Of a stretch of DNA of 22,819 nucleotides, positions 1 through 22,798 are shown in pieces. The stretch comes from Conexibacter sp. Its GTDB lineage: Bacteria; Actinomycetota; Thermoleophilia; Solirubrobacterales; Solirubrobacteraceae. The notes under the pieces were generated by a model. The model saw only the letters and a program-made list of their open reading frames with translations. It was not told the DNA's origin and did not search any database. Positions within the stretch are counted from its first letter, which is position 1. Each line of letters opens with the position of its first letter. The stretch lies in contig JAOPZG010000065.1 of the NCBI GenBank assembly GCA_025964215.1, forward strand, positions 1-22,819, read 5' to 3'. Both the position numbers and the translations under genes were made by a program.

Positions 1-11
1 TCGCCGATCGG

Positions 12-4364: not shown

Positions 4365-4373
4365 CGACCTTTT

Positions 4374-6315: not shown

Positions 6316-6456
6316 GCACCGGCCACGCCGCCGCTCACGGACGCCGAGCTGCGAGTCCTTGTCATCAGAGGACGGCGTGAGGTCCGCCCAGCTGCCCCGC
6401 CGGGCTTCGGCACCGCTTGCACGCTCCCGGCGCGTTCCCCGTGCGTCGAGCGTTCA

Positions 6457-7284: not shown

Positions 7285-7357
7285 TGCTGAATGCTCGCAG
7301 CAATTCGCCGCTACAACGAGCGTCTTCGATGGCGTCAGGCGGACGTCTCTCCGGGCC

Positions 7358-7399
7358 CTCGACGATGTCGACCAGGCGCTCACGGTCCTCGCGGCTCAT
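7358..7399 (-). pseudogene. Likely N-terminal remnant of a HepT (DUF86) HEPN toxin gene
   Basis: An ATG at 7399 overlaps the stop of the MNT gene as ATGA, the usual coupling of antitoxin and toxin. It begins MSREDRERLVDIVE, which resembles the start of HepT/DUF86 proteins (M-S-R-x-D-R-x-R-L-x-D-I-L-E). After about 14 codons the frame becomes Arg/Pro-rich, with no HEPN motif, and stops at 7181. The neighbouring winged-helix gene then takes over another frame. I infer a toxin gene truncated or replaced just after its start. The match is short and could be chance. Confidence 0.4.
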
Positions 7400-7905: not shown

Positions 7906-7922
7906 ACCTCATCGAGTATGAC
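7901..7922 (-). promoter_or_regulatory. Perfect palindrome at the start of the XRE-MNT gene
   Basis: GTCATAC (7901-7907) and GTATGAC (7916-7922) form a perfect 7-bp inverted repeat around an 8-base spacer. It overlaps the upstream ATG (7905) of the XRE-MNT gene and contains CATACT on the minus strand, which could be a -10 box. XRE-type antitoxins commonly bind such palindromes over their own promoters, so an autoregulatory operator is likely but inferred. Confidence 0.55.
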
Positions 7923-7924
7923 AC

Positions 7925-8173
7925 TCAGGGGAGCACACCAACAGGCCGCTGAGGCCCAGGGTCCCCGCGGTCGGTCCCGGTCTCGGCGCTGCTCGTCCAA
8001 CGCCGCGCCGTCGTCACCGGTGACCGCTCGAGCTTGAGCGGCGGATGCGCGGCCAGGACCTCCGACAGACGCCGGCGAGCCGGGATCAGCGTGCCGCGTT
8101 CGATGAGCGCCGCCATGCCGGCCGGGTACCTCGGTGGGTGATCTCCACTCGGATGGGCCATCGCGCTCGACAC
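7925..8173 (-). other. Possible small open frame or antitoxin remnant in the gap right of the XRE-MNT gene
   Basis: The 274-bp gap between the palindrome and the integrase 3' end contains one minus-strand open frame with a GTG start at 8173 (82 codons). Its middle part (MAALIERGTLIPARRRLSEV) vaguely resembles the C-terminal tail of Phd/YefM-type antitoxins, but the ends look non-coding and no partner toxin is adjacent. The attachment site (attL/attR or attP core) would be expected somewhere here, just beyond the integrase stop; I see no tRNA gene and could not identify a matching core repeat. Confidence 0.2.
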
Positions 8174-8196
8174 TAACGTCGCGTCGGCGATCGCGA

Positions 8197-9420: not shown

Positions 9421-9462
9421 GACCCGAAGAGGCACCAGCGGCCGAAACTCGCCCCCACCACG

Positions 9463-9672
9463 TCATCGCGCGCGGGGCCCCCGCTCCCCGACCTCCAGCC
9501 AACGCTCGATCGCAGAACGGCGATAGCGGACATAACGCCCCAGCCGGACATGCGGCAGCCCGTCGCGCCGCGTCTCGGCATAGACCCACGACCGGGTCAC
9601 GCGCATGAAGGCCGCGACCTCCTCAGCGGTCAGAAGCCGGTCCTCCGGCGGTTGCTCGTCGCGCGACTCCAT
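9463..9672 (-). CDS. xis: Excisionase / HTH_17 DNA-binding protein
   Basis: This 69-residue protein has the AlpA/HTH_17 excisionase pattern: LLTAEEVAAFMRVTRSWVY, GLPHVRLGRYVRYRRSAI, then ERWLE. Such MerR-like winged helices bend DNA at attachment sites to direct excision, or act as regulators. AAGGA precedes the ATG at 9672. It is on the same strand as the integrase with a 42-bp gap, so the two are probably co-transcribed. The basic tail (ERGPRAR) is typical. Confidence 0.9.
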   Translation of the reverse strand: MESRDEQPPEDRLLTAEEVAAFMRVTRSWVYAETRRDGLPHVRLGRYVRYRRSAIERWLEVGERGPRAR

Positions 9673-9713
9673 GGTCCTTAGTCGACGAGGCCGGTCATCA
9701 CCCCTCGCCCGGG

Positions 9714-10322
9714 TCAGCCGGGCCGTGGCGGCCGATCAGGACCGGCGCCGCTCGCCGCGACCTGCAACCGCCTTCGCCACGTCTTGGGCAGCGCCTCGCT
9801 CAGCCGAGCCGGCGTCGTCATGCCACGGCTCAACGACTGGCGCACCGCGAGATCGACCTGCTCGCTCCACCCATCCGCCCGCACGACATCGGCGATCGTG
9901 CGCTCCACCCCGCTGATCGGGATTCCGGAGACGGTGTGCCGGTCGCGTCCTTCGATCGGTCGGACCGTGAAATGCACCCGCACCCCGGCGGGCACCGCGG
10001 CACCGCGCTTCGATCGCGGCACCGTGACGTGAACCTCGTCGGCGATCAGGTCCGTGAGCTCCATCAGCTCCAACGCGCTCATGTGAGACACGACGGCGCC
10101 AGCACGCGACAGGCTCAGCCACGCGCAGATGACGTGTTCATGCGGTGAACTCGGAAAGCGACGCAGTCGGTAGACACCTCGCCCCGCCCGCCGAAGCGTC
10201 CCGCCCTCGCGCGCGTGGTACGTCAGAGTCGACCGGGCGACTCCAGCACCGATCGCCTGCCGCGCCGTGAAGAACCCGCCTTGGGCTTCCGCGAGCGCGT
10301 ACAGACAATCCTGGACGCTCAT
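9714..10322 (-). CDS. Orphan AbiEi-type antitoxin (AbiEi_4 winged-helix type)
   Basis: ATG at 10322 (MSVQDCLYALAEAQGG) gives 202 residues; ATG at 10352 would add ten. Neither has a clear Shine-Dalgarno. The N-terminal 60 residues match the AbiEi_4 winged helix: GFFTARQAIGAGVARSTLTY, EGGTLRRAGRGVYRL, PSSPHEHVICAWLSL. The C-terminal part (SGIPISGVERTIADVVRADG) is typical of this group of about 200-residue antitoxins, so length is normal and there is no truncation. These proteins repress and counteract an AbiEii nucleotidyltransferase normally encoded right downstream. Here only 41 bp separate it from the excisionase, so the toxin is absent. It may be a remnant, an element-encoded anti-toxin, or a repressor of the xis-int genes. 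Confidence 0.85.
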   Translation of the reverse strand: MSVQDCLYALAEAQGGFFTARQAIGAGVARSTLTYHAREGGTLRRAGRGVYRLRRFPSSPHEHVICAWLSLSRAGAVVSHMSALELMELTDLIADEVHVTVPRSKRGAAVPAGVRVHFTVRPIEGRDRHTVSGIPISGVERTIADVVRADGWSEQVDLAVRQSLSRGMTTPARLSEALPKTWRRRLQVAASGAGPDRPPRPG

Positions 10323-10355
10323 GTCACCGATTTCGCCAAGGTCCGCGACCATTTG

Positions 10356-10383
10356 TGCGACACAAGCTTAGCTACCTGTCGCA
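10356..10383 (-). promoter_or_regulatory. Inverted repeat upstream of the orphan AbiEi gene
   Basis: TGCGACA (10356-10362) and TGTCGCA (10377-10383) form a perfect 7-bp inverted repeat with a 14-base spacer containing an AAGCTT palindrome. It lies 34 bp upstream of the preferred start (10322), or 4 bp upstream of the alternative (10352). The 14-base spacer equals that of the repeat before the abiEi gene at 4374, although the arm sequences differ. An autoregulatory operator is inferred. Confidence 0.45.
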
Positions 10384-10682
10384 TACGCCATCTGCTCGCG
10401 CGCCCATCCAAGGCTTTGGTGCGACGTCGCCGCGGTGACTAGTCGCGAAGTCCCGGGCACCGATCCCGTCCCGCCAACACCCGAGCACACTAAGCATGGT
10501 CGAACATTTACATACCCTCATCGTCCCATTCGAGAACCGCCTCTTCACGCCAGATGAGTCCTTGCGAGAGCCGCTTGAGGTCCCGGATGCGATGCGGCGT
10601 CTTACCTAGCTGATGCGGCGCCGCGGGCGCCACCGGTGCATGATGGGACATCGGCAGCACACTGCCGATGGATGGTCGAGCG
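10384..10682. other. Lower-GC gap between the island and the ROK-like gene
   Basis: About 300 bp with no clear gene. A minus-strand 47-codon frame (10508-10651, start MSHHAPVAP, stop TAA) has a protein-like tail (LKRLSQGLIWREEAVLEW), and a plus-strand 37-codon frame begins at 10496. Neither has a recognisable family or a good ribosome-binding site, and the first one starts inside a hairpin. This is a plausible place for the right-hand boundary of the accessory region, but I found no att repeat. Confidence 0.3.
10649..10670 (-). terminator. Hairpin downstream of the ROK-like gene
   Basis: CATCGGCAG (10649-10657) and CTGCCGATG (10662-10670) form a perfect 9-bp stem with a CACA/TGTG loop, 12 bp after the stop of the minus-strand ROK-like gene. 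There is no T-tract, as is common for hairpin terminators in GC-rich actinobacteria. Position favours a terminator. Confidence 0.55.
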
Positions 10683-12026
10683 CTAGCGCTCGGCCGGTGA
10701 CGCAGCGCGATCACGCGCGGCAACGTTGGCCTGGAGTTGCGGCCGCAGGCGCTGCTCGAAGACGAGCTTCGCGGAGCCTGCGGCGACGCGGTACTGATGC
10801 GGGAGCTGTTGGGGTTCGAGCGGCGCGGCGAGCGACGCGTCGAGGTTCTCGGTGTCGACCACGACGCCGCGTAGCTCGGCCTCGATGCCCGAGCTGATCT
10901 CGATCGCGGTGCCCGCGACGCGATGGTGCCCGCAGACGCTAAGCAGCCCGTCGCGGAGTTGCTGCTCGTCGCGCGAGAGGAACCCTGTGATGATGACCAT
11001 CGCAGGACCGCACGCCGCGATCGGCCCGTCGAGGCACCGGCCGATCATCTCCCCTGCCCGGTTCATTGCCGCCCGCGCCGTCGTCCCCGCCTCACCACGC
11101 TGTTGCAGCAATGGCTTGAATCTCTCGTTGAAGATGTCGGTGTCCGTGCTCGTGCGCTCCTCCTCGTCCAGAACGCTCAGGCCGGAACGGCCGGTCATCT
11201 CCTCGTAGAGCCGATCGAGTGAGACGGCCTCACGCAGCTTGATCGGCTCGATCACCCCGTCCGGCCTCTCCGCCCAGGTCGTCAGCTCGCCGAGGTCAGC
11301 GACGTCGCCCGCGATGCCGTGCCACGGCACGCCGTCCAGCACCAGCGCCAATCGGACGTTGCGCGAGAGCTTGACGATCATCAGCGGCGACCGGCCTGCC
11401 TGCGATGCCGGGCGGAAGTAGTGCTCGAACACGCCTTCGAAGGCGACGTCCGACGCCCACAGCCATTCCATGCGATCCAGATCCAGGCCGAGTTCCCGTT
11501 CCCGCAGCGCGGCGTGGAGCAACTCCCTGGCGTTCTCCTCCGGCTCGTCCGACAGGAGTTGGCCGGTCTCCGCGTCCATCCCAAACGGCAGCGCCAGGGT
11601 GATTGCGCGCACCTCGGCGCGCACCTGGTCGCCGGCGAGATCGAGCGTCTCGGCCATGATGTCAGCGGTGCGCTCGACGATGGCTTTGACGCCAGGCTCA
11701 GGGCCATCGCTGCGTCGGAGCTTGCTGCGGCGCGTCGCACTCCCGGCGACCGCCCGCGTGTAGGCATCGAACACGCCGGCGTTGATCCGCGATGAACCTA
11801 CCGCGCCGGCGAGGACGTACCCGGCACGTCCGCCGAGCTGCCATGCGCCCCGCTCCATGGGCGACTCCATGACGAAGCGGCCGCTCGCGAGCGCGCTCAG
11901 ACGGCGACGAACCGAATCCGGCCGGAACCCCAGGTCCTTCGCTAGTTCCGCGACGGTGCGCGGGCGCGCTGCCAAGGCATCCACCAGCTCGGAGCGGTTG
12001 ATGTTCTTCGTGGTGCCGCGAGACAT
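10683..12026 (-). CDS. ROK-like winged-helix regulator lacking kinase signatures
   Basis: The 447-residue protein starts at ATG 12026 with AGGAG (plus-strand CTCCT at 12037-12041) 10 bases upstream. Residues 8-62 form an N-terminal winged helix (INRSELVDALAARPRTVAEL then AKDLGFRPDSVRRRLSAL). The remainder follows the layout of ROK/NagC-type proteins: YVLAGAVGSSRINAGVFD (beta-hairpin start), ITLALPFGMDAETGQL, LVLDGVPWHGIAGDVADLGE and a late helical AAMNRAGEMIGRCLDG. The phosphate-binding DxGGT motif, the catalytic ND pair and the Cys-rich zinc motif of sugar kinases are not visible, so a non-catalytic ligand-binding transcription factor is likely. It is divergent from the four-cysteine membrane protein across 118 bp, which makes that gene a candidate target. 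The ROK assignment rests on architecture and is moderately sure. Confidence 0.75.
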   Translation of the reverse strand: MSRGTTKNINRSELVDALAARPRTVAELAKDLGFRPDSVRRRLSALASGRFVMESPMERGAWQLGGRAGYVLAGAVGSSRINAGVFDAYTRAVAGSATRRSKLRRSDGPEPGVKAIVERTADIMAETLDLAGDQVRAEVRAITLALPFGMDAETGQLLSDEPEENARELLHAALRERELGLDLDRMEWLWASDVAFEGVFEHYFRPASQAGRSPLMIVKLSRNVRLALVLDGVPWHGIAGDVADLGELTTWAERPDGVIEPIKLREAVSLDRLYEEMTGRSGLSVLDEEERTSTDTDIFNERFKPLLQQRGEAGTTARAAMNRAGEMIGRCLDGPIAACGPAMVIITGFLSRDEQQLRDGLLSVCGHHRVAGTAIEISSGIEAELRGVVVDTENLDASLAAPLEPQQLPHQYRVAAGSAKLVFEQRLRPQLQANVAARDRAASPAER

Positions 12027-12091
12027 TCGGATAGAACTCCTAAAGAATCCGCCACATCAGCAGGCTTTTTACGGGGTGATCCGTTCAGAGT

Positions 12092-12104
12092 CCCGCAAAG
12101 CGGG
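12092..12104. promoter_or_regulatory. Small palindrome in the divergent promoter region
   Basis: CCCGC (12092-12096) and GCGGG (12100-12104) flank AAA in the 118-bp region between the ROK-like gene and the membrane-protein gene. It could be an operator half-site pair or a leader hairpin. Evidence is only symmetry and position. Confidence 0.25.
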
Positions 12105-12144
12105 TAATTCAGCTCCTAGCATGGCACACCAACGGAGCGATCAC

Positions 12145-12753
12145 GTGCCGAGCTACAAGTTCGGCGATAACAGCCACGTCGAGGCCGGCGGGGACGTGAA
12201 CATCGGCAGCGGCGGGGACGGAGGCGGCGGCTTCTCGGGCTGGCTAGCCCTCGTGTCCGCGGCGGTCGTAGCCGGGCTGATCGTGGCGTTCCTGGTCGCC
12301 GCCATCTCAGGCGGCGATGACCACCAGCGCGGCCCCGCGACGGCGGCCGTAAGCGACAGCACCTCGGCGGCGGCGGTGAGCGGCGGCATCACCGTGACCG
12401 TCGACAACCGGATTCCGATCGGCCGAAGCCGCATGAGCGAGGACAAGCCCCTGCGGCTGTTCACGACCGCGGCGATCTGCCGCGACGAGACCTGCGTGGT
12501 TCCGGGCACGTCCTACAACAGCGGCGACAGGATCTCCCACACCGTATGCCAGACCAGGGGCGACTGGGTGACCAACCAGAACATGAACACGCACGCCGAC
12601 GACGCCAACTCGGGCGTTGCGTCTTCGTCCCTTTGGTACGGGGTCCGGCAGTCGAACGGCCACCTCGCGTTTGTCAGCGTGGTCTGGCTCGCGCGTGGCC
12701 AGCGTGACGGCCGCTCGCTGCCGGACTGCCGCACCCAGGCGTTCCAGCGCTAG
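12145..12753 (+). CDS. Single-pass membrane protein with a four-cysteine external domain
   Basis: GTG at 12145 has GGAG at 12134-12137 with 7-base spacing; ATG at 12121 is in frame but lacks a Shine-Dalgarno, so I chose the GTG (202 residues). A short Gly-rich N-terminus (GDNSHVEAGGDVNIGSGG) precedes one membrane segment at about 32-54 (WLALVSAAVVAGLIVAFLVA). A Ser/Thr/Ala-rich linker and a C-terminal domain with four cysteines follow (AICRDETC, VCQTRG, DCRTQ), which could form two disulfides outside the cell. No enzymatic motif is seen. The gene is divergent from the ROK-like regulator. Family and function unknown. Confidence 0.75.
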   Translation: MPSYKFGDNSHVEAGGDVNIGSGGDGGGGFSGWLALVSAAVVAGLIVAFLVAAISGGDDHQRGPATAAVSDSTSAAAVSGGITVTVDNRIPIGRSRMSEDKPLRLFTTAAICRDETCVVPGTSYNSGDRISHTVCQTRGDWVTNQNMNTHADDANSGVASSSLWYGVRQSNGHLAFVSVVWLARGQRDGRSLPDCRTQAFQR

Positions 12754-13033: not shown

Positions 13034-13104
13034 TCGCGTGAGTGCGCGAACGTAACGCCACGTTGGCCGCTGACCGGTGCCCGACCAATCGCGCGAACGT
13101 GCGA
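13034..13104 (+). promoter_or_regulatory. Two copies of the TCGCR-N6-YGCGA motif upstream of the cupin gene
   Basis: Copy 1 (13034-13049) reads TCGCG-tgagtg-CGCGA and copy 2 (13089-13104) reads TCGCG-cgaacg-TGCGA followed by TGC. Their starts are 55 bp apart. Copy 2 ends 62 bp before the cupin ATG. Both match the motif found upstream of the SDR, the hydrolase and the esterase. They are probably binding sites for one dimeric transcription factor; its identity is unknown. Confidence 0.6.
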
Positions 13105-13166
13105 TGCGCGACGCCGCCCACGGTGAAAGCGTCAAAGGACGCCGCACCCGACGACCGGAGAGCACC

Positions 13167-13538
13167 ATGTCCACCGACTCGACCATGCCCACGACCCGTC
13201 CCGGCGACGCCCTGGCCGGCAAGCTCAGGCGCACCGAACTCCAGCACGACGCCTCCTCGATCCCTGGCCGCGAGATCGTCCAGGTCCTGACCGAGATCCC
13301 CGCCGGAGTGTCTTCGGGGTGGCACATGCACCCGGGCGAGGAGGTCGGCTACATCCTCGCGGGCACGGTCCGGATGGAGATCGAGGGGCACCCCACGCTG
13401 ACGTTGAACGCCGGCGATCCGTTCCTCATGGCGCCCCGCACGCCGCACAACGCAACCGACCTAGGGCCCGAGACCGGTCGGATGCTGTCGACGTACATCG
13501 TCGAGACCGACGAGCCGCTGGCCACGTTCACCCGATGA
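13167..13538 (+). CDS. Small single-domain cupin protein
   Basis: ATG at 13167 with GGAG six bases upstream gives 123 residues. The cupin_2 metal site is visible: H53 and H55 in GWHMHPGEEVGYILAG, E59, and H94 in APRTPHNATD. Such small cupins bind a divalent metal and act as sensors, dioxygenases or isomerases; substrate cannot be told. The stop overlaps the glycosylase start as ATGA, so the two are translationally coupled. Two copies of the recurrent palindrome lie upstream, implying shared control with the SDR and hydrolase genes. Confidence 0.9.
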   Translation: MSTDSTMPTTRPGDALAGKLRRTELQHDASSIPGREIVQVLTEIPAGVSSGWHMHPGEEVGYILAGTVRMEIEGHPTLTLNAGDPFLMAPRTPHNATDLGPETGRMLSTYIVETDEPLATFTR

Positions 13539-14200
13539 CCGCCGTGACCGCTCACGCGCCCGCATCACCGGACCTCGACAAGGCGTATGACCTGCTCGCA
13601 GCCCATGACCGGCAGCTTTCGGCGTTGATCACCCTCCACGGGCGGCCCGATCCGTTCTCGTGGCAGCTGCTGCGCGATGCGGCGGGCGACGCGCCCCTCG
13701 CCGAGCTGGCGCTGCACATCGTCAGCCAGCAGATCTCGACGGCGGCCGCGCTGACGATCTACGGACGCGTCGTGGCGGCGATGGGCGGTGTCATGGACGC
13801 CGGGCGGCTCCTGGCCGCAAGCTCGCCCGACCTCCGCGCGGCAGGCCTGTCGGGCGCCAAGTCGCGATCGCTCCAGGATCTCGCCCAGCGGGTCATCGAC
13901 GGACGGCTCGACTTCGAGCGCCTCGCGCGCAGCGACGACCAGACCGCCGAGGCGGAGCTCGAGCAGGTCCGGGGCGTGGGTCCCTGGTCGGCGCAGATGT
14001 TCCTCTTGCATCACCTCCGGCGACCGGACGTCTTCCCGGCCGCCGACATCGGGCTGTTGCGCGGAGCGCAGTCCGCCTTCGCGCTCCACGCCCGCCCGAC
14101 ACCGATCGAGCTGGCCGGACGTGCGCAGCGCTGGCGCCCGCTGCGCTCTTACGCCGCCGCGCTGCTCTGGGCGCACGCCAAGGACTTGCCCGCGGGTTAG
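13535..14200 (+). CDS. AlkA-type DNA-3-methyladenine glycosylase
   Basis: ATG at 13535 (ATGA overlap with the cupin stop) gives 221 residues. The helix-hairpin-helix signature LEQVRGVGPWSAQMFLL lies at about 142-158 and the catalytic Asp is D171 in FPAADIGLLRG, as in AlkA and yeast Mag1 homologues. LHIVSQQISTAAA (about 60-72) is the conserved helix of the same family. The enzyme would excise alkylated bases in the first step of base excision repair. The N-terminal AlkA beta domain is missing, as in the short Mag1-like group. The gene ends convergently with the kinase gene, overlapping by 4 bp. Confidence 0.92.
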   Translation: MTAVTAHAPASPDLDKAYDLLAAHDRQLSALITLHGRPDPFSWQLLRDAAGDAPLAELALHIVSQQISTAAALTIYGRVVAAMGGVMDAGRLLAASSPDLRAAGLSGAKSRSLQDLAQRVIDGRLDFERLARSDDQTAEAELEQVRGVGPWSAQMFLLHHLRRPDVFPAADIGLLRGAQSAFALHARPTPIELAGRAQRWRPLRSYAAALLWAHAKDLPAG

Positions 14201-15840
14201 GTCTGGGAGCCCGCCGGCGTCGCCGGCAGCGCCACCTGCAGGCGCGTCCCCCGGCCCGCGGGGCTGAGGATCGCCAGCTCGCCATCGCGGGCCGCGACGC
14301 GGTCACTCAACCCGAGCAGACCCGAGCCGCGTCCCGGGTCGGCGCCCCCTATGCCGTCGTCTTGGATGACGATCGCGAGTGTCGAGCTCGTCGCGTCGAA
14401 CGTGATCTCGACCTCGGCCTCCTTGGCGCGCGCGTGCTTGACGACGTTCGTCAGCGCTTCGGCGACGATGAAGTAAGCGGTCGTCTCGACCTGCGCTTCG
14501 AACCGGGGCGTTGCCACGCGCGAATCGACCGGCAGCGGCAGGTCGGCAGTCAGCGACTCGATCGCGCTGCGCAACCCTCCGGTCCTGAGCGACGCCGGGA
14601 GGATCCCGTGCACCACATCGCGCAGCTCCGTGCTGGCGCGCTCTGCGTGACGCAAGGAGTCCTCCAACAAGGATCGCAGGCGACCATCCACATCGCCGAC
14701 CTCCGCCAGGGCCATCTTGAGCGTGAGCACCGTCTGCACCAGCCGCTGCTGGGCCCCGTCATGGACATCGCGCTGCAGGCGCAGGCGGGTCTCGTCGGCC
14801 GTGGCCACGACGCGGGCACGCGATGCCGTGAGCTGCGCGCGGCTCTCGGCGTTGCCGATCGAAACAGCAACCAGGTCGGCGAACTGGCTCAGCCGGCGCT
14901 CGGTCTCGGGAGGCAACGGGCGGTCACGTGATGTGGCCGTCAGTGCGCCCCAGATCTCCTCCCGCACGATGACGGGAGCGCCAACCACGGCCACCACACC
15001 CCATTCTCGCGCCATCGCACAGTCTCGAGCGACGGCGTCGTCGATCCGAGCCGGCCGTCGGGTATCGCGGACGAGGACGCTGATGTCGCCGTCTTCCAGG
15101 GGGTAGAGCTTGTCGCTCAGCGGCATGTCGGAGGTGGTCGCCAAGATCTGGCAGGTGTCCGGCCCGGCGAGGCGCAGCAGGAACACCTCCTCGCCATCGA
15201 CCAGTGCCGATGCTTCGATCGCCACAGCGGCGAACACCTCGACCGGATCGCCCGCACGGGCTGCGAGCTCGGCGACGCGGCGAAGCGCAGCCTGCTCGTC
15301 GAGCAGCGCGCGCAGTCTTCGCCGGGCCTGTGCGTCGGCGATCGCGGTGCCTGCGAGTTTGGCGAACCGCGTCAGGCTTTCTTCGACGCCGGCGGGCAGA
15401 GGACCGTTTCGGCCCGTTACGACCAGCGTCCCCCAGAGCCGGCCGCCGATCACGATCGGCGCAGCCGCGCTGGAGGCGAACCCCAGCGAGTAGGCGACTC
15501 GCGGCCAGTGGCCGGTGGCCTGGGAGAGGTCGTCCATACGGGCGGCCCGGCCCGTGCGCAGTACTCGCTGCGTTGCTCCTTGCCCGTCGCCGGGTTCGCG
15601 CATCCCCACTGCAAGACCCTCCGGGGCACCGCTCAGCGCCGCGATCTGTGTGCCCCCACCGGCCTCGAACCGCAGCAAGGTGGTGAACTCGACCCCGGTG
15701 AGCTGCGAGGCCTGAGCCACGACCTCGTCCAAGATCTCGTCCGGCGTCGCGTCGGACGCGACCAGGTCGGCGACGTGGCCGATCGCGTCCTGCTCTTCAG
15801 CGACCCGGTGGAGATCTCGACCCAGGTCGGCTTCAGTCAC
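14197..15840 (-). CDS. Cytosolic double-GAF NarL-type sensor histidine kinase
   Basis: GTG at 15840 (VTEADLGRDL) with AGGAC upstream gives 547 residues; the frame runs on to 15963, but those extra residues are Pro/Ser-rich and unlikely. Two GAF domains occupy about 21-170 and 185-335. The HisKA_3 dimerisation motif LQRDVHDGAQQRL carries the phospho-acceptor H360, and the HATPase_c has EALTNVVKHARA (N box) and DDGIGG followed by GSGLLGLSDRV (G boxes). No membrane span is present, so it senses an internal ligand, redox state or gas. NarL-type kinases normally pair with a LuxR/NarL response regulator, but none is adjacent. It converges on the glycosylase gene. Confidence 0.93.
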   Translation of the reverse strand: MTEADLGRDLHRVAEEQDAIGHVADLVASDATPDEILDEVVAQASQLTGVEFTTLLRFEAGGGTQIAALSGAPEGLAVGMREPGDGQGATQRVLRTGRAARMDDLSQATGHWPRVAYSLGFASSAAAPIVIGGRLWGTLVVTGRNGPLPAGVEESLTRFAKLAGTAIADAQARRRLRALLDEQAALRRVAELAARAGDPVEVFAAVAIEASALVDGEEVFLLRLAGPDTCQILATTSDMPLSDKLYPLEDGDISVLVRDTRRPARIDDAVARDCAMAREWGVVAVVGAPVIVREEIWGALTATSRDRPLPPETERRLSQFADLVAVSIGNAESRAQLTASRARVVATADETRLRLQRDVHDGAQQRLVQTVLTLKMALAEVGDVDGRLRSLLEDSLRHAERASTELRDVVHGILPASLRTGGLRSAIESLTADLPLPVDSRVATPRFEAQVETTAYFIVAEALTNVVKHARAKEAEVEITFDATSSTLAIVIQDDGIGGADPGRGSGLLGLSDRVAARDGELAILSPAGRGTRLQVALPATPAGSQT

Positions 15841-15983
15841 GGCGAGTCCTGGCCTTGCGGCGACCCCGGCAGAACTCGACGTGAGGGGCGGAGATGGCGC
15901 AGGCGAAGAGTGTTTCACCGCGCGGAGAGGCGAACAAGGGGGCGACCAGGTGTCCCGCCTCACCAGCCGCCGGCGGCGGGCGT

Positions 15984-17180
15984 CTACGGACGCACCTGCT
16001 GACCGCCGTCGATGACGAGGTTCGTACCCGTCACGTAGGAAGCGCGGCCCGAGACGAGATAGGCGACCGCCTCGGCGATGTCCTCGGGCACGCCGATCCG
16101 GCCGATCGGGATGCCGGCGTTGAGCGTATCGACGTCGATGCCGAACGCCGAAGCGAGGTCCTCCCTGGTCTTGTCGGCGCCCGGCGACTGCACCGACCCC
16201 GGCGTGATGGTGTTGACCCGGACCCCGGTCGGCGCGAGCTCGGTCGCAAGACCCTTGGAGTAGGCGATCAGCGCGGCCTTGGCCGCGCCGTAGTGCAGCA
16301 ACGGCGCCGGAACATCGAAGGCAGCCGTCGACGCGATGTTGATGATGACGCCGTCGCCCCGGTCGAGCATCTGCGGCAAGAGCGCGGTGTTCAGCCGCAC
16401 CGCCGCCAGGAAGTTGATGTCGATGGCGTCCTGCCAGTCCTCGGCGGGGATCGACAGCGATCCGTCGGGAAACGTCCGGGCGGCGCCGGCGTTGTTGATG
16501 ATGATGTCCACGCCGCCCATCGCTTCGATGGCCGCATCAGCGACGGACTGCGCGCCAACCGCGGTGCGCACGTCACCGGCCACATACCGGAGGCGCTCCG
16601 GCAGCTCGGACGGGGCGCTCCGGGCCGTGGTCAACACGTGCGCGCCTGCATCGAGCAACCGCTGGGCGATCCCCGCGCCGATGCCGCGCGAGCCACCGGT
16701 GAGCAGCACACGCCGTCCGTCGAGCTCGCGAGCGCCGTCGCCCGCGGCCCAGGCCCTGCTGACGGCCAACGTGTCTTCGTAGAGATGCAGCCGCACGATC
16801 TCCCCGCCGGCGGTCGTCAGGCGCAACGCCGCCGGCGTGTCGAATCTCCGTCCCGTGTCGCGGGCCACGTGGCTGAAGTTCGCAAGGATGATCGCCTCGG
16901 CGCCGTCGATCACCAGCTGCTCGACGCTGACGATGCTCGCGCCCGGCTCCAGGTGCGACCACAACGTCTGGAAGTACTCGACGATCTCGTCGCGGCGCGC
17001 CCGCCGGCCGGTCCAGGGCAGCTTCTCGTCGCCCGGCACCAGCCAATCGACCGTCGCCGAGAACAGCCGCGCGATCCCTTCGGCGTCTCCGGCACCCAGC
17101 CGCTCCACCAAGGCGCTGGCCAAGGAACGAGCGTCCCCGTCCGTGTCAGGGTCGGGTCGCAAGACGTGCGTGCTGTCCAT
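15984..17180 (-). CDS. SnoaL-like domain fused to a short-chain dehydrogenase/reductase
   Basis: ATG at 17180 with GAGGAAG upstream gives 398 residues. Residues 15-140 form a SnoaL-like/NTF2-fold domain (SLASALVERLGAGDAEGIAR, then WLVPGDEKLPWTGRRARRDE). An SDR follows: TGGSRGIG at 161-168 for NAD(P) binding, NNAG at 229-232, and the catalytic triad S284, Y297, K301 (IAST and HYGAAKAAL). The ending DGGQQVRP is typical of classical SDRs. It likely reduces or oxidises a small carbonyl or alcohol, with the NTF2-fold domain binding substrate or adding an isomerase or hydrolase step. It is divergent from the haloperoxidase-like hydrolase, and one copy of the recurrent motif lies 67 bp upstream. Confidence 0.92.
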   Translation of the reverse strand: MDSTHVLRPDPDTDGDARSLASALVERLGAGDAEGIARLFSATVDWLVPGDEKLPWTGRRARRDEIVEYFQTLWSHLEPGASIVSVEQLVIDGAEAIILANFSHVARDTGRRFDTPAALRLTTAGGEIVRLHLYEDTLAVSRAWAAGDGARELDGRRVLLTGGSRGIGAGIAQRLLDAGAHVLTTARSAPSELPERLRYVAGDVRTAVGAQSVADAAIEAMGGVDIIINNAGAARTFPDGSLSIPAEDWQDAIDINFLAAVRLNTALLPQMLDRGDGVIINIASTAAFDVPAPLLHYGAAKAALIAYSKGLATELAPTGVRVNTITPGSVQSPGADKTREDLASAFGIDVDTLNAGIPIGRIGVPEDIAEAVAYLVSGRASYVTGTNLVIDGGQQVRP

Positions 17181-17247
17181 GAGCTCTTCCTCGGTGTCGA
17201 TGCGTGAACGGTTCGGTCCACGGTGACCGGCAAGTGGCGCGCCGGCA

Positions 17248-17311
17248 TCGCGCATCCGTGCGGTCGTGCGACCGCTGGCTCGGTCTCGATCAACATCGCA
17301 TGGTCGCGCGA
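17248..17311. promoter_or_regulatory. Two oppositely oriented regulatory motifs between SDR and hydrolase genes
   Basis: The copy at 17248-17263 reads CCGCA-cggatg-CGCGA then TGC on the minus strand, facing the SDR. The copy at 17296-17311 reads TCGCA-tggtcg-CGCGA then TGC on the plus strand, facing the hydrolase. Each lies about 65-100 bp before its start codon. A separate perfect 16-bp palindrome (17260-17275, GCGGTCG-TG-CGACCGC) overlaps the first copy. Confidence 0.6.
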
Positions 17312-17397
17312 TGCCCCGAAGTCGCCTGACAGCGAATGTCGGCAGACCTTGTCGCCCCGCCCCCCGGCCCGGCGAAGTTCAACCGAAGGAGCACCTC

Positions 17398-18255
17398 ATG
17401 GGCATCGTCACCGTCGGCAGCGAGAACTCGGCCCCGATCGAGCTGTACTACGAGGACCAGGGCAGCGGTCCGGCGGTCGTGCTGTTGAGCGGTTGGCCGC
17501 TGGACAGCCGCTCCTGGGAGCCCCAGGTCCACCAGCTGCTGGAGGCCGGCCATCGTGTGATCGCCATCGACCGGCGCGGCTTCGGGCAGTCCAGCCACCC
17601 GCTCGGGGGTTACGACTTCGACACGCTCGCCGCCGACCTCGACAAGGTCCTGACCGAGATCGACGTCCACGAAGCGACGCTGGTCGGGTTCTCGCTGGGC
17701 ACGGGCGAGGTCGCGCGCTACATCGGCACGTACGGCACCAACCGCCTGAAGGCTTGTGTCTTCATCGAGAGCCTCGCGCCCTCCTTCGTCAAGTCCACTG
17801 ACAACCCCAACGGGGTCGACCAGGCCGGCGTGGACGGCGTCCGCGAGGCGATCCTCGCCGACCGGCCCGCGTGGCTGACCGGGCTCCTCGCCGACTTCCT
17901 CAACCTCGACGACTACCTCGGCCACCGCGTCAGCGAGGAGACCGTGCGCAGCCTCTGGGGCGCCGGAAACGATGCCTCGCCGTGGGCGACGTGGGCGTGT
18001 GTGGTCACGTGGCTCGACGACTTCGCCGAAGACATCGACCGCATCGACATCCCCACGCTGATCCTGCACGGGACCGCCGATCGGATCCTGTCCATCGACG
18101 GCCAGGGCCGGCGGCTGCACGCCGCCCTGCCTGATGCCAAGTACGTCGAGATCGAGGGCGGTCCGCACGTCATGTGCGTCACGCACGCCCCGGAGGTCAA
18201 CCGCGAGCTGTTGACCTTCCTGCGCGAGACCGCCGACGTGGTCGCCGCGGCCTGA
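17398..18255 (+). CDS. Haloperoxidase-like alpha/beta hydrolase
   Basis: ATG at 17398 with AAGGAG (17386-17391) gives 285 residues. It matches the cofactor-free haloperoxidase/perhydrolase and arylesterase group: GWPLDSRSW, DRRGFGQS, GYDFDTLAADLDKVL, the nucleophile elbow GFSLG (S99), D228 in HGTADRIL and H257 in GGPHVM. RYIGTYGTNRL and DNPNGVDQ are further family marks. The position usually occupied by His before the oxyanion glycine is Ser (LLSGWPL). Such enzymes hydrolyse esters or lactones and can make peracids; the true substrate is unknown. It is preceded by the recurrent motif and followed closely by an esterase gene with its own copy. Confidence 0.92.
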   Translation: MGIVTVGSENSAPIELYYEDQGSGPAVVLLSGWPLDSRSWEPQVHQLLEAGHRVIAIDRRGFGQSSHPLGGYDFDTLAADLDKVLTEIDVHEATLVGFSLGTGEVARYIGTYGTNRLKACVFIESLAPSFVKSTDNPNGVDQAGVDGVREAILADRPAWLTGLLADFLNLDDYLGHRVSEETVRSLWGAGNDASPWATWACVVTWLDDFAEDIDRIDIPTLILHGTADRILSIDGQGRRLHAALPDAKYVEIEGGPHVMCVTHAPEVNRELLTFLRETADVVAAA

Positions 18256-18257
18256 TC

Positions 18258-18273
18258 TCGCATGGGTGTGCGA
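18258..18273 (+). promoter_or_regulatory. Recurrent motif upstream of the esterase gene
   Basis: TCGCA-tgggtg-TGCGA, with perfect 5-bp arms, begins 3 bp after the hydrolase stop and ends 70 bp before the esterase ATG. With flanks, it reads ATCTCGCA...GTGTGCGATGG and differs from the copy at the right window edge at only three positions over 22 bases. Its presence suggests the esterase has its own regulated promoter. Confidence 0.65.
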
Positions 18274-18343
18274 TGGCCCTCTGCCACCGCTCCACAATCA
18301 TAGCTCTCATCAGTCGACTTCCTCTATCAAGGAGCACATCAGC

Positions 18344-19303
18344 ATGGCCGTTCAATCCCGCATCGTCCTCGAGCCGTCCGCGCAGGGCATCGTCGACGCC
18401 ACCGCCCTCCCGCCCTTCCTGTACGAGCTGACGCCCGCCGCGGCCCGGAAGGTGCTCGACGACCTGCAGGCCGACCCCGACGGCCTGCTCGCCATCGACG
18501 AGGAGTGGATCACCGTCCCTGCCGCTGTCGGCGACGTCCGCGTGCGCATCATCAAGCCCATCGACTGCTCCGAGCCGCTGCCCGTCATCGTGTACATGCA
18601 CGGCGGCGGCTGGATCCTCGGCAACGCCGGCACGCACGACCGGTTGGTCCGCGAGCTCGCCGTCGGCGCGCACGCGGCGCTGTTGTTCGTCGAATACCCC
18701 AACGCGCCGGAGGCGCGCTACCCCGTCGCCATCGAGCAGGGCTACGCGACCGCTCAGTGGGTGATCCGCGAAGGCGCGGCCAAGGGCCTGGACGCGACGC
18801 GGATGGCCGCCGTCGGCGAGTCGGTGGGGGGCAACATGGCCGCCGCGCTCACGCTCATGGCCAAGGAGCGTGGGGACGTCACCTTCATCCAGACCTCCAT
18901 GTACTACCCGGTCACCGACGCCGCGATGGACACCGACTCCTACGACGAGTTCGCCGTCGGCTACTACCTCTCGCGCAAGTCGATGGAGTGGTTCTGGGAC
19001 GCCTACCTGCCCGACGCGGCGCGGCGCTCGGAGATCACCGCCTCACCCAACCAGGCCACGATCGAACAGCTCGCCGGCCTCCCGCCGACGCTCGTGTTCG
19101 TCGACGAGGCCGACGTGCTGCGCGACGAGGGCGAGGCCTATGCCGCCAAGCTGCGGATGGCCGGCGTGCCGGTCACCACCGTGCGCTACGACGGCGTGGT
19201 CCACGACTTCATGTTGCTCAACGCCATGAGCGAGGCCAAGGCGACCCGCGCCGCCATCGCCCAGGCCACCGACGTCCTGCACAAGGCCTTCAGCACGTCC
19301 TGA
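18344..19303 (+). CDS. HSL-type (alpha/beta hydrolase_3) esterase
   Basis: ATG at 18344 with AAGGAG (18329-18334) gives 319 residues. Hormone-sensitive-lipase family marks are complete: oxyanion HGGGW (86-90), nucleophile elbow GESVGG (S160), D257 in DEADVLRDEG and H287 in GVVHDF. There is no signal peptide, so it should act in the cytoplasm on short acyl esters. A strong hairpin 25 bp after the stop ends the transcript. Common control with the preceding hydrolase and the SDR is suggested by the shared upstream motif, and the three may process the same substrate. Confidence 0.94.
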   Translation: MAVQSRIVLEPSAQGIVDATALPPFLYELTPAAARKVLDDLQADPDGLLAIDEEWITVPAAVGDVRVRIIKPIDCSEPLPVIVYMHGGGWILGNAGTHDRLVRELAVGAHAALLFVEYPNAPEARYPVAIEQGYATAQWVIREGAAKGLDATRMAAVGESVGGNMAAALTLMAKERGDVTFIQTSMYYPVTDAAMDTDSYDEFAVGYYLSRKSMEWFWDAYLPDAARRSEITASPNQATIEQLAGLPPTLVFVDEADVLRDEGEAYAAKLRMAGVPVTTVRYDGVVHDFMLLNAMSEAKATRAAIAQATDVLHKAFSTS

Positions 19304-19327
19304 GCCGAAGGCCGCAGCCCCGGCCCG

Positions 19328-19357
19328 GGGAGGGCTCCGCCGACACGGAGCCCTCCC
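19328..19357 (+). terminator. Strong hairpin terminator after the esterase
   Basis: GGGAGGGCTCCG (19328-19339) and CGGAGCCCTCCC (19346-19357) form a perfect 12-bp stem with a 6-base loop. There is no T-tract. Its position 25 bp after the esterase stop and before the next transcription unit makes terminator function likely. Confidence 0.8.
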
Positions 19358-19384
19358 GCCCACCCCGCGACAACGGATCTCCCC

Positions 19385-19870
19385 ATGCCCGACGTCCCAC
19401 GGACAGAGCGTCGCTCGGTCCGCTCCGCTGACCCCTCCCTCTCCCCCGAGGCCAACCGCCTGCTCACCGACGAGCTGCGTGCCATCGTCGGTAGCGACGA
19501 GGTCGAAGTGCCCGTCGACCGCGCCGACCCGGCCCACGCGACGCATGGCGTCCACTCGCCCTGGGTCGCCAACATCATCGACGCCCGGCTTGGCCCGGTC
19601 TTCACCGGACTCGCCGCGATCTGCGTCGCAGCGGTCGTCGCGCTGACGTGGAGCTCCTGGGTGATCCTGGTGCTGGCGCTGGCCATCCTCGTCGCGGCGA
19701 CGCTGCTCGCCCTGCGATCGCTCCTTTCACTGACCGACGAGGTCGAGCATCCCGATCCCGAGACGGCCGCGCTGCTGGAGGCCGAGGGCGTCGGCGATCC
19801 CGACCGCGTCCTCGAGGACCTCGTGCACGAGTTCCAGCCGCCCGTCCGCGACCTGCCCACCACCCGGTGA
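19385..19870 (+). CDS. Two-span membrane protein of unknown function
   Basis: ATG at 19385 gives 161 residues. Two hydrophobic segments at about 71-88 (PVFTGLAAICVAAVVALT) and 91-112 (WVILVLALAILVAATLLALR) form a hairpin with both ends probably cytoplasmic. A His-containing stretch HATHGVH (51-57) precedes the first span. The C-terminus is acidic (VEHPDPETAALLEAEG). I do not recognise a family. It is 9 bp before the LysR gene and heads a closely packed unit running to 22745. Confidence 0.8.
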   Translation: MPDVPRTERRSVRSADPSLSPEANRLLTDELRAIVGSDEVEVPVDRADPAHATHGVHSPWVANIIDARLGPVFTGLAAICVAAVVALTWSSWVILVLALAILVAATLLALRSLLSLTDEVEHPDPETAALLEAEGVGDPDRVLEDLVHEFQPPVRDLPTTR

Positions 19871-19879
19871 TCTGACCCC

Positions 19880-20821
19880 ATGGAACTCCGTCATCTGCGC
19901 TACTTCGTCGCCGTCGCCGAGGAACTGCACTTCCGCCGCGCAGCAGCGAAGCTCCACCTGGCCCAGCCCGCGCTCAGCGAGCAGGTGCGCAAGCTCGAGT
20001 TCGAACTCGGCGTGACGCTGCTCGACCGCTCGTCGCGCAGCGTGAAGCTCACCGAGGCGGGAGCCGTCCTGCTCGACGACGCCCGTCGCATCCTTCGCCA
20101 CTCCGAGGCCGCCGCGCACGCTGCGCGCACGGCCGGCAGCGTGTCCCGTCTCCGGCTCCGTGTCGGCTTCACCGCGCTGGGGATCCCGCTCCCGGTCCAT
20201 CAGATGCTCACCGGCCTGCGCCGTGTGCCGCGATCAGCGGACGTCCGGGTCGAGCTGGCGACCGACGATGCCCGCTCGCTGCTCGCCGACGTCCGCTCCG
20301 GCAGGCTCGACGCAGCGATCGTCCATCTGCCCGCCGCGACCGCGGGCCTGCGAGTGCTTGAGATCGGCCGCGACGCGGCGCTCGCCGCAACGCCGGCCGG
20401 TAGCGGCTCGGCGGCAGACCCCCTGACCGTCGAGGCGCTCGCCGGTGAGCGGCTGCTGCTCATGCGGCGCGTGGTGGATCCCGCCTTCTACGACGCGATA
20501 CTCGGCGGGTATCTCCAGCGCGAGATCGTGCACGCACCCGTCGACAGCAACGCGCCAACGGTCGAGCAGCTGCTCCTCGAGGTCGCCGCAGGCGCCGGCG
20601 TCGCCATCGTGCCGCAGGGCGTCGCCGACCGGATGACGATTCCGGGGGTCGTCCTGAGGCCTCTGACGGGATGGGCCCCGGCGCCGCCGATAGGGCTCGT
20701 CGTTCGCGACGAGACCCCTGGGCGAGCACTCGCGGCCGCCCTTACGACCCTGACCAGCGCCTCCGTCCGCGCCCCGCAACGCCCGGCGTTGGCCCTGGTC
20801 GGCGACGCGGTGCCCCGGTGA
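19880..20821 (+). CDS. LysR-family transcriptional regulator
   Basis: The 313-residue protein has a typical LysR N-terminus: MELRHLRYFVAVAEELHFRR, then a helix-turn-helix at about 18-40 (AAAKLHLAQPALSEQVRKLE), LLDRSSRSVKLTEAG, and a periplasmic-binding-like effector domain (about 90-300). It is not divergent from an obvious target as most LysR genes are; instead it is the second gene of a packed unit, and its stop overlaps the next start as GTGA. It is the only LysR in the window and a candidate, though unproven, reader of the recurrent motif. Confidence 0.95.
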   Translation: MELRHLRYFVAVAEELHFRRAAAKLHLAQPALSEQVRKLEFELGVTLLDRSSRSVKLTEAGAVLLDDARRILRHSEAAAHAARTAGSVSRLRLRVGFTALGIPLPVHQMLTGLRRVPRSADVRVELATDDARSLLADVRSGRLDAAIVHLPAATAGLRVLEIGRDAALAATPAGSGSAADPLTVEALAGERLLLMRRVVDPAFYDAILGGYLQREIVHAPVDSNAPTVEQLLLEVAAGAGVAIVPQGVADRMTIPGVVLRPLTGWAPAPPIGLVVRDETPGRALAAALTTLTSASVRAPQRPALALVGDAVPR

Positions 20822-21084
20822 CCGGCATGACGGCGTTCTCCGAGGGTCATCCCGACAGGCGTCGAACGCTGGGCACCCAACTGGAGTCCCATCGTCTGGA
20901 GCACCGCCTCCTGCGCCTCACCACCATCGTCGGGGCCCTTCACGCCCGGGCCGAGCGGCACCAGCTGGATCTCGGACGCTCCCCACGTCAGCTGCGAGCC
21001 GCGATCGCTGACTTCGAAGCCGAGCGGACCAGGACACGTGCCCGGCTCGCCGAGCTCGCCCCGCCGGAGGGCGTGACGCGATGA
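20818..21084 (+). CDS. Small helical protein, first of a paralogous pair
   Basis: GTG at 20818 overlaps the LysR stop (GTGA); ATG at 20827 is the alternative. It encodes about 88 mostly helical, charged residues. The C-terminal part ADFEAERTRTRARLAEL closely resembles THFEAERVETIRRMQEL of the next gene, and both have an RL-x5-L helix and a Pro-containing turn before it. No known family is recognised. Translational coupling to LysR upstream and to its paralogue downstream argues that it is real. Confidence 0.75.
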   Translation: MTGMTAFSEGHPDRRRTLGTQLESHRLEHRLLRLTTIVGALHARAERHQLDLGRSPRQLRAAIADFEAERTRTRARLAELAPPEGVTR

Positions 21085-21287
21085 ACACGTCCAGCGGTAC
21101 TGGTGCCCGACGTGGGCGACAGCAGCGTGCGGCGCGACTCGGAGCCGTGGTCCAGCGGCTGCAGGATTTGGCCGCGGAGCTTCGGAGCGCTGGCGCGCCG
21201 CTGCACCCACAGCTCGTGCACGCGCTCACGCACTTCGAAGCGGAGCGCGTGGAGACCATTCGGCGGATGCAGGAACTGAGCGACTGA
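21081..21287 (+). CDS. Small helical protein, second of a paralogous pair
   Basis: ATG at 21081 overlaps the previous stop (ATGA) and gives 68 residues: a basic N-terminus (GARRGRQQRAARLG), then two helices (VVQRLQDLAAELRSAG and HPQLVHALTHFEAERVETIR) with a turn between. It shares FEAERxxTxxRxxEL with the preceding protein. It ends 15 bp before the kinase gene. Possible roles are a two-helix adaptor for the kinase or the LysR regulator; this is inferred from position only. Confidence 0.75.
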   Translation: MNTSSGTGARRGRQQRAARLGAVVQRLQDLAAELRSAGAPLHPQLVHALTHFEAERVETIRRMQELSD

Positions 21288-21302
21288 GCAACCCCGTCTC
21301 AC

Positions 21303-22745
21303 TTGCCTCGCCTGCGTCCCGCCACGCCGATCACCGTCTTGTCACCAGACCCAATCACCGTTGCCGAGCTGGACGCCATCGATCTCTTCGCGGGGCTCGG
21401 CGCGGCCGAGCTCGCCGAATGGGCGCAGCGGGCCACGGTCCGAGAGGCGGCCGCCGGCGAGATCCTCGTCGAGCAGGGCGAGCACCCGCCCGGGCTGTTG
21501 CTTGTGCTCGACGGGGGCATCAACACGGTCAGGGTCGACAACAACGGCATCGAGCCCGTCGCACGCCACGAGCCCCCCACGTGGATGGGCGCCGTCGCGC
21601 TGCTGACGGGCACGGAGCTCCCGGTCCGGGCGCTGGCGGTGGCCGATTGCCGGGTCGCCCTCGTCGCGGCCTCGGACTTCCACGACCTCGTGCACTCGCA
21701 CCTCAGCGTCCACGACCGGATCATGCGGCGCATCGCTCCGGTCTACGCGCGTGTGACCCAGGTCGACGCCAACCGGGCGCGCCTCGCCGCGCTGGGCACA
21801 CTGGCCGCCGGATTGGCCCACGGGCTCAACAACCCCTCGGCCGCGGCGCAGCGTGCCGCCGCCGCCCTGACCGAGACCATGCGCGTCGGCGATGACGCGC
21901 TCACGAGGCTCCTGGGCATGGAGCTGACGCCGGCGGTCCTGCGGGAGATCGCTGGCCGCCGCACGCAGGCCACGGCCCGGGCGGACGCGGGCGTCACCCT
22001 CGGGGCGGTTGGCGCGGCCGACGCGGAGGACGCCCTGCTCGGGCTCCTAGAGGACCACGGCGTCGGGGAGGCGTGGACGATCGCCGAGCCCCTGGCGGCC
22101 GCCGGGCTGCAGCCGCCGTGGGTCGAGGGCATGGCCGAACTCGCCGGCCCGGCGACCGATCCGGTGCTGCGCTGGGTCGCGGCCGGACTGGCTGCGCGCC
22201 GCCTGTCCGCTGAGGTCGCGGAGGCCGCACGGAGCATGTCCGAGCTCGTGAACGCCATCAAGTCCTACGCCTTCCTTGACCGGGGCGCGCTTGTCGCGAT
22301 CGACCTCGAGCAAGCCCTTGACAGCGCAATCGCACTGGCCGGCCATCGGCTCGGCCGCCTGCGCATCCGACGGGAGTACGCCGAGGGCGTCCCGGCACTG
22401 ACCGGTCGCGGCTCGGCCCTCAGCCTCGTGTGGACCAACCTCATCGACAACGCCGTGGACGCGGCGGGCGACAGCGGGACGATTGCCGTCAGCACGCGAG
22501 CGGAGGGCGACACAGCGGTCGTCGAGATCACCGACGACGGCGCCGGCATCCCGCCCGCGATCAGCGATCGGATCTTCGACCCGTTCTTCACCACCAAGGC
22601 GGTCGGGCGGGGCGCAGGCCTGGGCCTTTCGGCGGCCCGAGCCATCGTCGCCGACCACCCCGGCGGCTCGCTGAGCGTCACCTCGCGGCCCGGTTGCACG
22701 ACGTTCCGGGTGAGCCTGCCCTACGGCACGTCGGCTGACGGCTGA
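21303..22745 (+). CDS. Histidine kinase with an N-terminal CRP-like (cNMP-binding fold) domain
   Basis: A TTG at 21303 gives 480 residues; no good Shine-Dalgarno is seen, so the start is uncertain, but the domain begins soon after (AELDAIDLFAGL). Residues 22-145 are a CRP/cNMP-binding fold (AAGEILVEQGEHPPGLLLVL and WMGAVALLTG then VRALAV). The phosphate-binding cassette has the Arg but Gly-Ala in place of Gly-Glu, so the ligand may not be a cyclic nucleotide. The H box is LAHGLNNPSAAA (H173) and the HATPase has WTNLIDNAVDA (N379, N383), DDGAGIPP and FDPFFTTK. About 200 residues separate H173 from the N box, longer than usual, with an unrecognised insert. No response regulator is adjacent. Confidence 0.9.
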   Translation: MPRLRPATPITVLSPDPITVAELDAIDLFAGLGAAELAEWAQRATVREAAAGEILVEQGEHPPGLLLVLDGGINTVRVDNNGIEPVARHEPPTWMGAVALLTGTELPVRALAVADCRVALVAASDFHDLVHSHLSVHDRIMRRIAPVYARVTQVDANRARLAALGTLAAGLAHGLNNPSAAAQRAAAALTETMRVGDDALTRLLGMELTPAVLREIAGRRTQATARADAGVTLGAVGAADAEDALLGLLEDHGVGEAWTIAEPLAAAGLQPPWVEGMAELAGPATDPVLRWVAAGLAARRLSAEVAEAARSMSELVNAIKSYAFLDRGALVAIDLEQALDSAIALAGHRLGRLRIRREYAEGVPALTGRGSALSLVWTNLIDNAVDAAGDSGTIAVSTRAEGDTAVVEITDDGAGIPPAISDRIFDPFFTTKAVGRGAGLGLSAARAIVADHPGGSLSVTSRPGCTTFRVSLPYGTSADG

Positions 22746-22782
22746 CGTGCCACGGGCCTCGGTCACGCCGCCACGCTCAATC

Positions 22783-22798
22783 TCGCACAGGTGCGCGA
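22783..22798 (+). promoter_or_regulatory. Recurrent motif at the right edge
   Basis: TCGCA-caggtg-CGCGA followed by TGG, 38 bp after the kinase stop. It is almost the same as the copy upstream of the esterase and also contains the inner palindrome CGCAC-AG-GTGCG. By analogy with the other copies, a plus-strand gene under the same control should start about 60-130 bp to the right, outside the window. Confidence 0.6.

Follow-up and report, generated by a model that had tools for sequence, protein, structure and literature searches.

A recurring palindrome in a Conexibacter contig as a predicted operator of LAL-type LuxR regulators

The 22,819-nucleotide stretch of Conexibacter sp. DNA analyzed here (contig JAOPZG010000065.1, hereafter the window) carries six intergenic copies of a palindromic motif, an observation first made from the sequence alone and confirmed by our analysis. 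We propose, with a probability of about 0.6, that these palindromes are operators bound by a clade of LAL proteins (large ATP-binding regulators of the LuxR family), and comparison of loci across genomes points to regulators of this type encoded on other contigs. The predicted binder is MalT-like and about 940 aa long, with an N-terminal AAA_16 ATPase, a C-terminal LuxR-type (GerE) helix-turn-helix (HTH) and a recognition helix of the form HTVxxHLR. One LAL of contig C189, or that of contig C620, would bind the inverted half-sites and so switch the promoters of a regulon together. This regulon would comprise the cupin-glycosylase genes, the genes for a SnoaL-SDR (short-chain dehydrogenase/reductase) fusion and its neighboring kinase, the hydrolase and esterase genes, one unseen gene, and SLAC1/TDT transporter genes of C189.

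Six copies in the window and their relatives in the genome

Exact copies of the motif lie at 13034, 13089, 17296, 18258 and 22783 on the plus strand and at 17248 on the minus strand, just where the sequence-only reading had placed them, and together they give the consensus YCGCRYRRNYGYGCGA. All six were scored outside called genes, and dinucleotide shuffles of the window returned a mean of 0.11 matches and a maximum of 1. The layout is that of two inverted ATCRC half-sites separated by an 8-bp spacer, 18 bp in total, standing about 40 to 125 bp 5' of start codons with the better half-site gene-proximal. For the first five copies the proposed ATG begins about 117, 62, 67, 86 and 70 bp beyond the edge of the site, in agreement with the ~60–130 bp first claimed; the target of the copy at 22783 is truncated by the contig end. 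The smaller details of that description were largely borne out as well: five of the six copies continue with TG[CG] toward the gene (the exception, at 13034, reads ACG), three positions distinguish the 22-mer at 18258 from that at 22783, and exact copies are absent to the left of 12.7 kb. The last spacer base is indeed G in all six, but this is already fixed by the consensus itself. The copy at 13034 is weak, with a leave-one-out score of 5.9 vs 19 to 28 for the remaining five; the copy at 18258 begins 3 bases past the hydrolase stop codon, and that at 17248 covers position 17255, where the SDR frame has an alternative start that would lengthen it.

The genome is available as a fragmented bin of 674 contigs (65% complete, 3.43 Mb scanned), in which genes were called with a simple codon-bias caller trained on the window and C189, and intergenic borders are approximate; gene names come from Pfam only where stated and otherwise from blastp against 19 reference proteins or from inspection by eye. 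Scanned over this bin, the consensus as originally written proved too loose, with 38 matches against 24 in the reversed control, a mild excess, and of the 20 loci read outside the window, 14 fall within reading frames (GC at third codon positions at least 0.87). Across the genus the loose consensus was swamped by TCGCGC..GCGCGA and was set aside. A tightened 18-mer, with A required at position 5, ATG required at the end and one mismatch permitted, gave 11 matches and 0 reversed: five in the window, one at C189:9958-9975 and five elsewhere. The exact 18-mer TCGCAYRGNYGYGCGATG occurs in 15 of 396 genomes of the phylum, with four copies in our genome and one in each of the other 14, so that the spelling used here is not widespread.

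These counts bear on the possibility that GC-rich palindromes have clustered by chance and mark no protein site. The loose pattern is common in the genus, also in the reversed control; set against this, the window shuffles, the intergenic placement of the copies, the 11 to 0 result of the 18-mer and a 20/21 identity with a site in another genus (see below) leave chance as a highly improbable explanation.

The palindrome at LAL loci of other genomes

A weight matrix was built from the six window sites only and scored over non-overlapping intergenic gaps. At loci of the LAL clade, 7 of 31 gaps reached p<0.05 (Fisher p 7.6e-4), and the 26 clade gaps outside our own genome gave a Fisher p of 1.4e-3. 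Control LAL loci showed none in 31 gaps (p 0.98) and response-regulator loci 2 in 42 (p 0.41), while hydrolase and SDR gaps gave p 0.41 and 0.43; a rank test separated clade gaps from control LAL gaps (p 0.016). The best matrix matches yielded a relaxed 18-bp palindrome, ATCRCNYGNNCRNGYGAT. With up to two mismatches allowed, the clade loci of other genomes carry 15 copies of it across 29.8 kb of intergenic DNA, where the reversed pattern matches once. Genes of the same loci hold 6 such sites in 153 kb, control LAL loci 0 in 17.3 kb, and response-regulator loci 3 in 36.7 kb (0.08 per kb); the G113 stretches L292 and L350 overlap in this count, and neither holds a counted site. With the pattern fixed, LAL homologues were fetched phylum-wide, giving 11 best-scoring loci from other families and 18 lower-scoring ones. 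The 11 best carry 4 sites in 10.6 kb, vs 2 in 50.7 kb of genes and 0 reversed: two adjoin the LAL of L355 (a hydrolase-like gene flanks one of these on its other side), the site of L363 lies at the end of its LAL, and that of L361 (2 mismatches) does not adjoin one. A search of palindromes with five-base half-sites (1024 half-sites at 13 spacings), run on clade DNA of other genomes with the window and our own genome excluded, put ATCAC-N8-GTGAT in second place, with 6 occurrences where 0.43 were expected and 1 in controls; first came a GC-rich repeat that also scores high in controls. We conclude that the palindrome is moderately enriched in gaps next to LAL-clade genes, an effect that control LALs and response regulators do not show.

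The sites also follow the recognition helix. Among proteins that reach 450 aa and show a recognizable LuxR helix, and with our own genome excluded, a site lies within 1.5 kb of 9 of the 15 LALs whose helix reads HT[VI]xxHLR vs 4 of 56 others (p 3.3e-5); removing the five loci already known when the pattern was drawn up gives 4 of 9 vs 4 of 56 (p 0.01). A quick tree of 53 LALs, from which L343a with its double-length reading frame was omitted, resolves a group of 16 with SH-aLRT support of 100, including the C189 and C620 genes; of the 15 signature genes placed in the tree, 13 belong to it. The LALs of L363 and L368 have the signature helix, yet branch outside this group. The clearest parallel to the window is genome G106 (L347), in which an HxlR gene, a clade LAL, a hydrolase, a metallo-beta-lactamase-fold gene and an HhH-GPD glycosylase lie on one stretch. 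There, at 7609, a divergent SDR/hydrolase gap holds ATCGCATGGTCGAGCGATGCC, identical in 20 of 21 bases to the window site at 17295.

The C189 match is a near-perfect copy of the palindrome and stands before SLAC1/TDT, hydrolase, DUF1348 and PNPOx genes. The same contig encodes three LAL-clade (MalT-like) genes, of which one is complete at 940 aa, another spans 684 aa and the third runs off the contig; a fourth, likewise truncated, lies on C620. The complete protein has the features by which LALs are recognized, an N-terminal ATPase, a C-terminal LuxR-type HTH and a length of about 900–1000 aa. AAA_16 was also found in L198, and in the 684-aa gene Pfam detected GerE and no ATPase domain. A degenerate copy of the palindrome separates two LAL genes on C189 (L192 3685-3702), a hint of autoregulation. 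The idea of a gene-oriented operator linking several promoters is supported, with the C189 promoter copy added; its conservation at orthologues and the consensus as written are not. Activation of these promoters by the LAL is most likely, given the spacing of about 40 to 125 bp between sites and starts and the gene-proximal position of the better arm, and it may instead repress them.

In our own genome, ATCRCNYGNNCRNGYGAT is matched exactly at two places, both in the window (copies 2 and 4), and at up to one mismatch at 12 places, 4 of them outside called genes. At two mismatches there are 198 matches vs 45 reversed; the relaxed form alone is therefore unable to list the regulon. Two intergenic matches, at C391 (L194) 3435 (score 23.3, about 316 bp before a MarR-like/MFS pair) and C503 (L195) 1742 (score 17.6, between LysR-like and TetR-like genes), are possible extra members, the names of the neighboring genes having been assigned by eye.

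Several results weigh against assigning the palindrome to LAL proteins. The window holds no LAL gene, and its link to C189 consists of a shared motif and shared gene kinds within a fragmented bin; just one C189 LAL is complete, the 684-aa gene is without the helix signature, and the C189 site overlaps the longer of two candidate transporter starts. Six of the 15 signature LALs have no site nearby, and some sites lie beside LALs with another helix, SHRT[VI]GSHLY. The relaxed pattern was written after some clade gaps had been seen, so that the ATCRCNYGNNCRNGYGAT and helix counts are in part post hoc. Allowing three mismatches nearly removes the contrast (0.97 per kb in clade intergenic DNA vs 0.68 in genes), the rank test finds clade gaps hardly different from response-regulator gaps (p 0.084), and in 22.0 kb at the 18 lower-scoring loci there were 5 sites and 1 reversed match; L368, whose LAL has the same helix but matched in two pieces, accounts for three of these sites. 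Relatives favor ATCAC and our genome ATCGC; the exact half-site ATCGCAYG, tried at clade LAL promoters, was rejected as too weak (3 of 22 vs 1 of 23 controls). The five 18-mer matches outside the window and C189 fall within genes in three cases and where no gene was called in two (C439 and C638), and the 18-mer exceeds its reversed control in other genomes of the family too (9 to 0 in G137, 7 to 0 in G025). No sigma-70-like promoters were found near the sites, and activation is a guess.

The palindrome might instead be read by another dimeric regulator, either the LysR protein of the window, which the sequence-only reading had proposed, or a TetR, MarR or HxlR protein of the genome. The LysR gene does lie within the window cluster, own-genome sites occur near the MarR-MFS pair (C391) and the LysR-/TetR-like genes (C503), an HxlR gene precedes the LAL in G106, and at L344 a relaxed site falls between a LysR-like gene and a LAL. 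Yet none of these families was seen recurring beside the motif as the clade LALs do, a comparison in which they were not tested as sets, and the palindromes near SDR relatives in G019, G026 and G030 (TetR-like by eye) have a different sequence. LysR-type operators have the dyad T-N11-A, and the conserved ends of the window sites read T-N14-A; nothing was found that ties the motif to the local LysR, whose neighborhoods were not searched as a set. A binder of this kind appears unlikely.

Gene neighborhoods and a second element

Conservation of the palindrome 5' of orthologous genes, the test set by the sequence-only reading, did not materialize. Esterase relatives at 63 to 80% identity occur in many actinobacteria; 3 of 80 esterase loci have a loose, arms-only match within 400 bp and 0 fit the consensus, a few of these contigs carrying less than 400 bp upstream. 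At up to two mismatches the relaxed palindrome occurs 5 times in 193 kb at esterase loci, with 4 reversed. Nine loci of the orthologous gene island, with 17.0 kb of intergenic DNA between them, hold no relaxed site and 2 reversed ones. A relaxed scan returned ATCGCCTGG..CGAC-type matches upstream of 8 of the 80 esterase loci; because all eight are absent from the intergenic list, they were treated as coding. Upstream of 29 hydrolase loci no conserved copy was found, two of the 29 having an intergenic match (AGCGCTCG..CGAGCGCT, 2 mismatches). Only G062 keeps the left half-site ATCGCATGGTCG, before its hydrolase orthologue, and there the upstream neighbor of the orthologue is a LAL regulator.

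The island itself recurs in actinobacteria, being present in the window (13167-19303) and at L057, L058, L060, L070, L084, L197 and L256. Its members are a hydrolase, the HSL esterase, a second hydrolase, a cupin, a glycosylase, PNPOx, a transporter and a cNMP-binding reductase-like gene, in subsets and orders that vary; some loci lie beside a NarL-type regulator and kinase, and L084 beside a LAL-like gene.

At L070, L197 and L256, part of the island stands beside a NarL-type response regulator and kinase. In gaps beside such genes sits a second element, GGTAGGGCTAGCC, exact at C189 (L192 about 10013-10030), L256 11828 and L070 2993 and present with one mismatch at L084. Other response-regulator loci hold no exact copy and 4 one-mismatch matches in 31 kb, and at up to one mismatch the element is absent from the other esterase loci (184 kb intergenic), the LAL-clade loci (17.6 kb) and the window. 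GGTAGGGCTAGCC, which was noticed after the fact at few loci, is possibly the operator of the NarL-type regulator, and it suggests that the island has a second operator and changed regulators in the course of evolution. Tentatively, and on balance with some doubt, we suggest that the island may have been rewired between a NarL-type regulator acting through GGTAGGGCTAGCC and a LAL ATPase acting through ATCRC-N8-GYGAT, C189 bearing both elements.

NarL-family inverted-repeat sites have 7-2-7 spacing, and the palindrome could itself be such an operator, bound by the C189 NarL-type response regulator, which would control the island together with a GAF-HisKA_3 kinase (and the window kinase). The C189 palindrome shares its gap with the gene for this response regulator, the kinases of the window and of C189 share 47% identity over 537 aa, and a response regulator and kinase accompany island genes at the three loci named above. 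The response-regulator gaps nevertheless show no enrichment by matrix or relaxed pattern, C189, L256 and L070 have GGTAGGGCTAGCC in common instead, and the better arm of the C189 palindrome faces the transporter, away from the response regulator. We regard this alternative as quite unlikely and dropped the response regulator as binder, its loci showing another shared element and no enrichment.

The features of the window are collected below with the complete C189 LAL. The window kinase is probably co-transcribed with the SDR gene, from which it is separated by 20 bp. SnoaL_2 domains are fused to the SDR in the window (15984-17180) and to a GAF-histidine kinase on C189 (L192 11227-14079). Among the matches listed, SDR matches from other genomes at 40% identity or more start at query residue 136 or later, and the SnoaL_2-SDR fusion may be particular to this lineage. 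Positions 1-12750 encode a phage-type integrase, AbiEi-like and AbiEii-like proteins, a Schlafen AlbA_2 protein and an HTH-nucleotidyltransferase, and are probably an integrated element or defence island flanking the regulon; no tRNA was found in the window. The left half is different in kind, which fits its lack of exact copies.

Coordinates of the palindrome copies, the window genes and the complete LAL of contig C189
Feature	Coordinates	Strand	Basis
Palindrome copy 1, weakest, 5' of cupin-glycosylase	13034..13049	+	exact match; leave-one-out 5.9
Palindrome copy 2 (ATCGCGCGAACGTGCGAT)	13088..13105	+	relaxed 18-mer exact match
Palindrome copy 3, facing SnoaL-SDR gene	17246..17263	-	
Palindrome copy 4 (ATCGCATGGTCGCGCGAT), facing hydrolase	17295..17312	+	relaxed 18-mer exact match
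Palindrome copy 5, facing HSL-type esterase	18258..18275	+	
Palindrome copy 6, target past contig end	22783..22800	+	
Cupin_2 protein	13167..13538	+	Pfam
HhH-GPD DNA glycosylase	13535..14200	+	Pfam
GAF-GAF-HisKA_3-HATPase histidine kinase	14197..15963	-	Pfam
SnoaL_2-SDR fusion	15984..17180	-	Pfam
Alpha/beta hydrolase, haloperoxidase-like	17398..18255	+	Pfam; relatives
HSL-type esterase (Abhydrolase_3)	18344..19303	+	Pfam; relatives
LysR regulator, earlier proposed as binder; unsupported as binder	19880..20821	+	Pfam
cNMP-binding + HATPase sensor protein, 5' of copy 6	21303..22745	+	Pfam
Complete C189 LAL	C189:3751-6573		AAA_16 N-terminal, E 4.2e-19; GerE residues 870-924 of 940

Significance and comparison with known systems

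If the proposal is true, it would supply a sequence-level recognition code, from helix HTVxxHLR to ATCRC, for LALs whose operators are hard to predict. LAL regulators are widespread in actinobacteria, and a palindrome that travels with the helix type would allow regulons to be predicted from sequence. For this soil lineage, it would suggest that ester-type and haloperoxidase-like hydrolases, an SDR, a DNA glycosylase and a TehA/SLAC1-type transporter act together.

The geometry of NarL-family sites matches the 16-bp core of the window motif, TCGCAYR-RN-YGYGCGA, but the motif is not enriched at NarL-type regulator loci. The PimM-type operator of PAS-LuxR regulators, CTVGGGAWWTCCCBAG, which lies in the -35 region (PMC9774167), is likewise a palindrome of similar length recognized by a LuxR-type HTH; it differs in sequence, and the scanned LALs show no PAS domain in Pfam.

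Closer to the proposed binder, the LAL SCO6993 binds short palindromes and its own promoter, and according to the same paper no consensus could be predicted for it (PMC9628970). The protein family and palindromic LAL sites are thus already known, and the present case adds an operator and regulon to a known kind; neither these nor such a consensus appeared among the titles and abstract openings listed from the open-licence literature. What would be new is a consensus common to several genera and tied to the recognition-helix type. MalT oligomerizes when ATP-bound (PMC5015266), and by analogy the LALs would be MalT-like switches that oligomerize with ATP and bind DNA through their LuxR-type HTH. 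With MalT-like and LAL regulators the candidate binder shares AAA_16 at the N-terminus, a GerE HTH at the C-terminus and a length of about 940 aa. The target of MalT is two decanucleotides in direct repeat, and that proposed for TpdR is a 15-nt direct repeat (PMC6099782), whereas the element described here is an 18-bp inverted repeat that recurs across genera.

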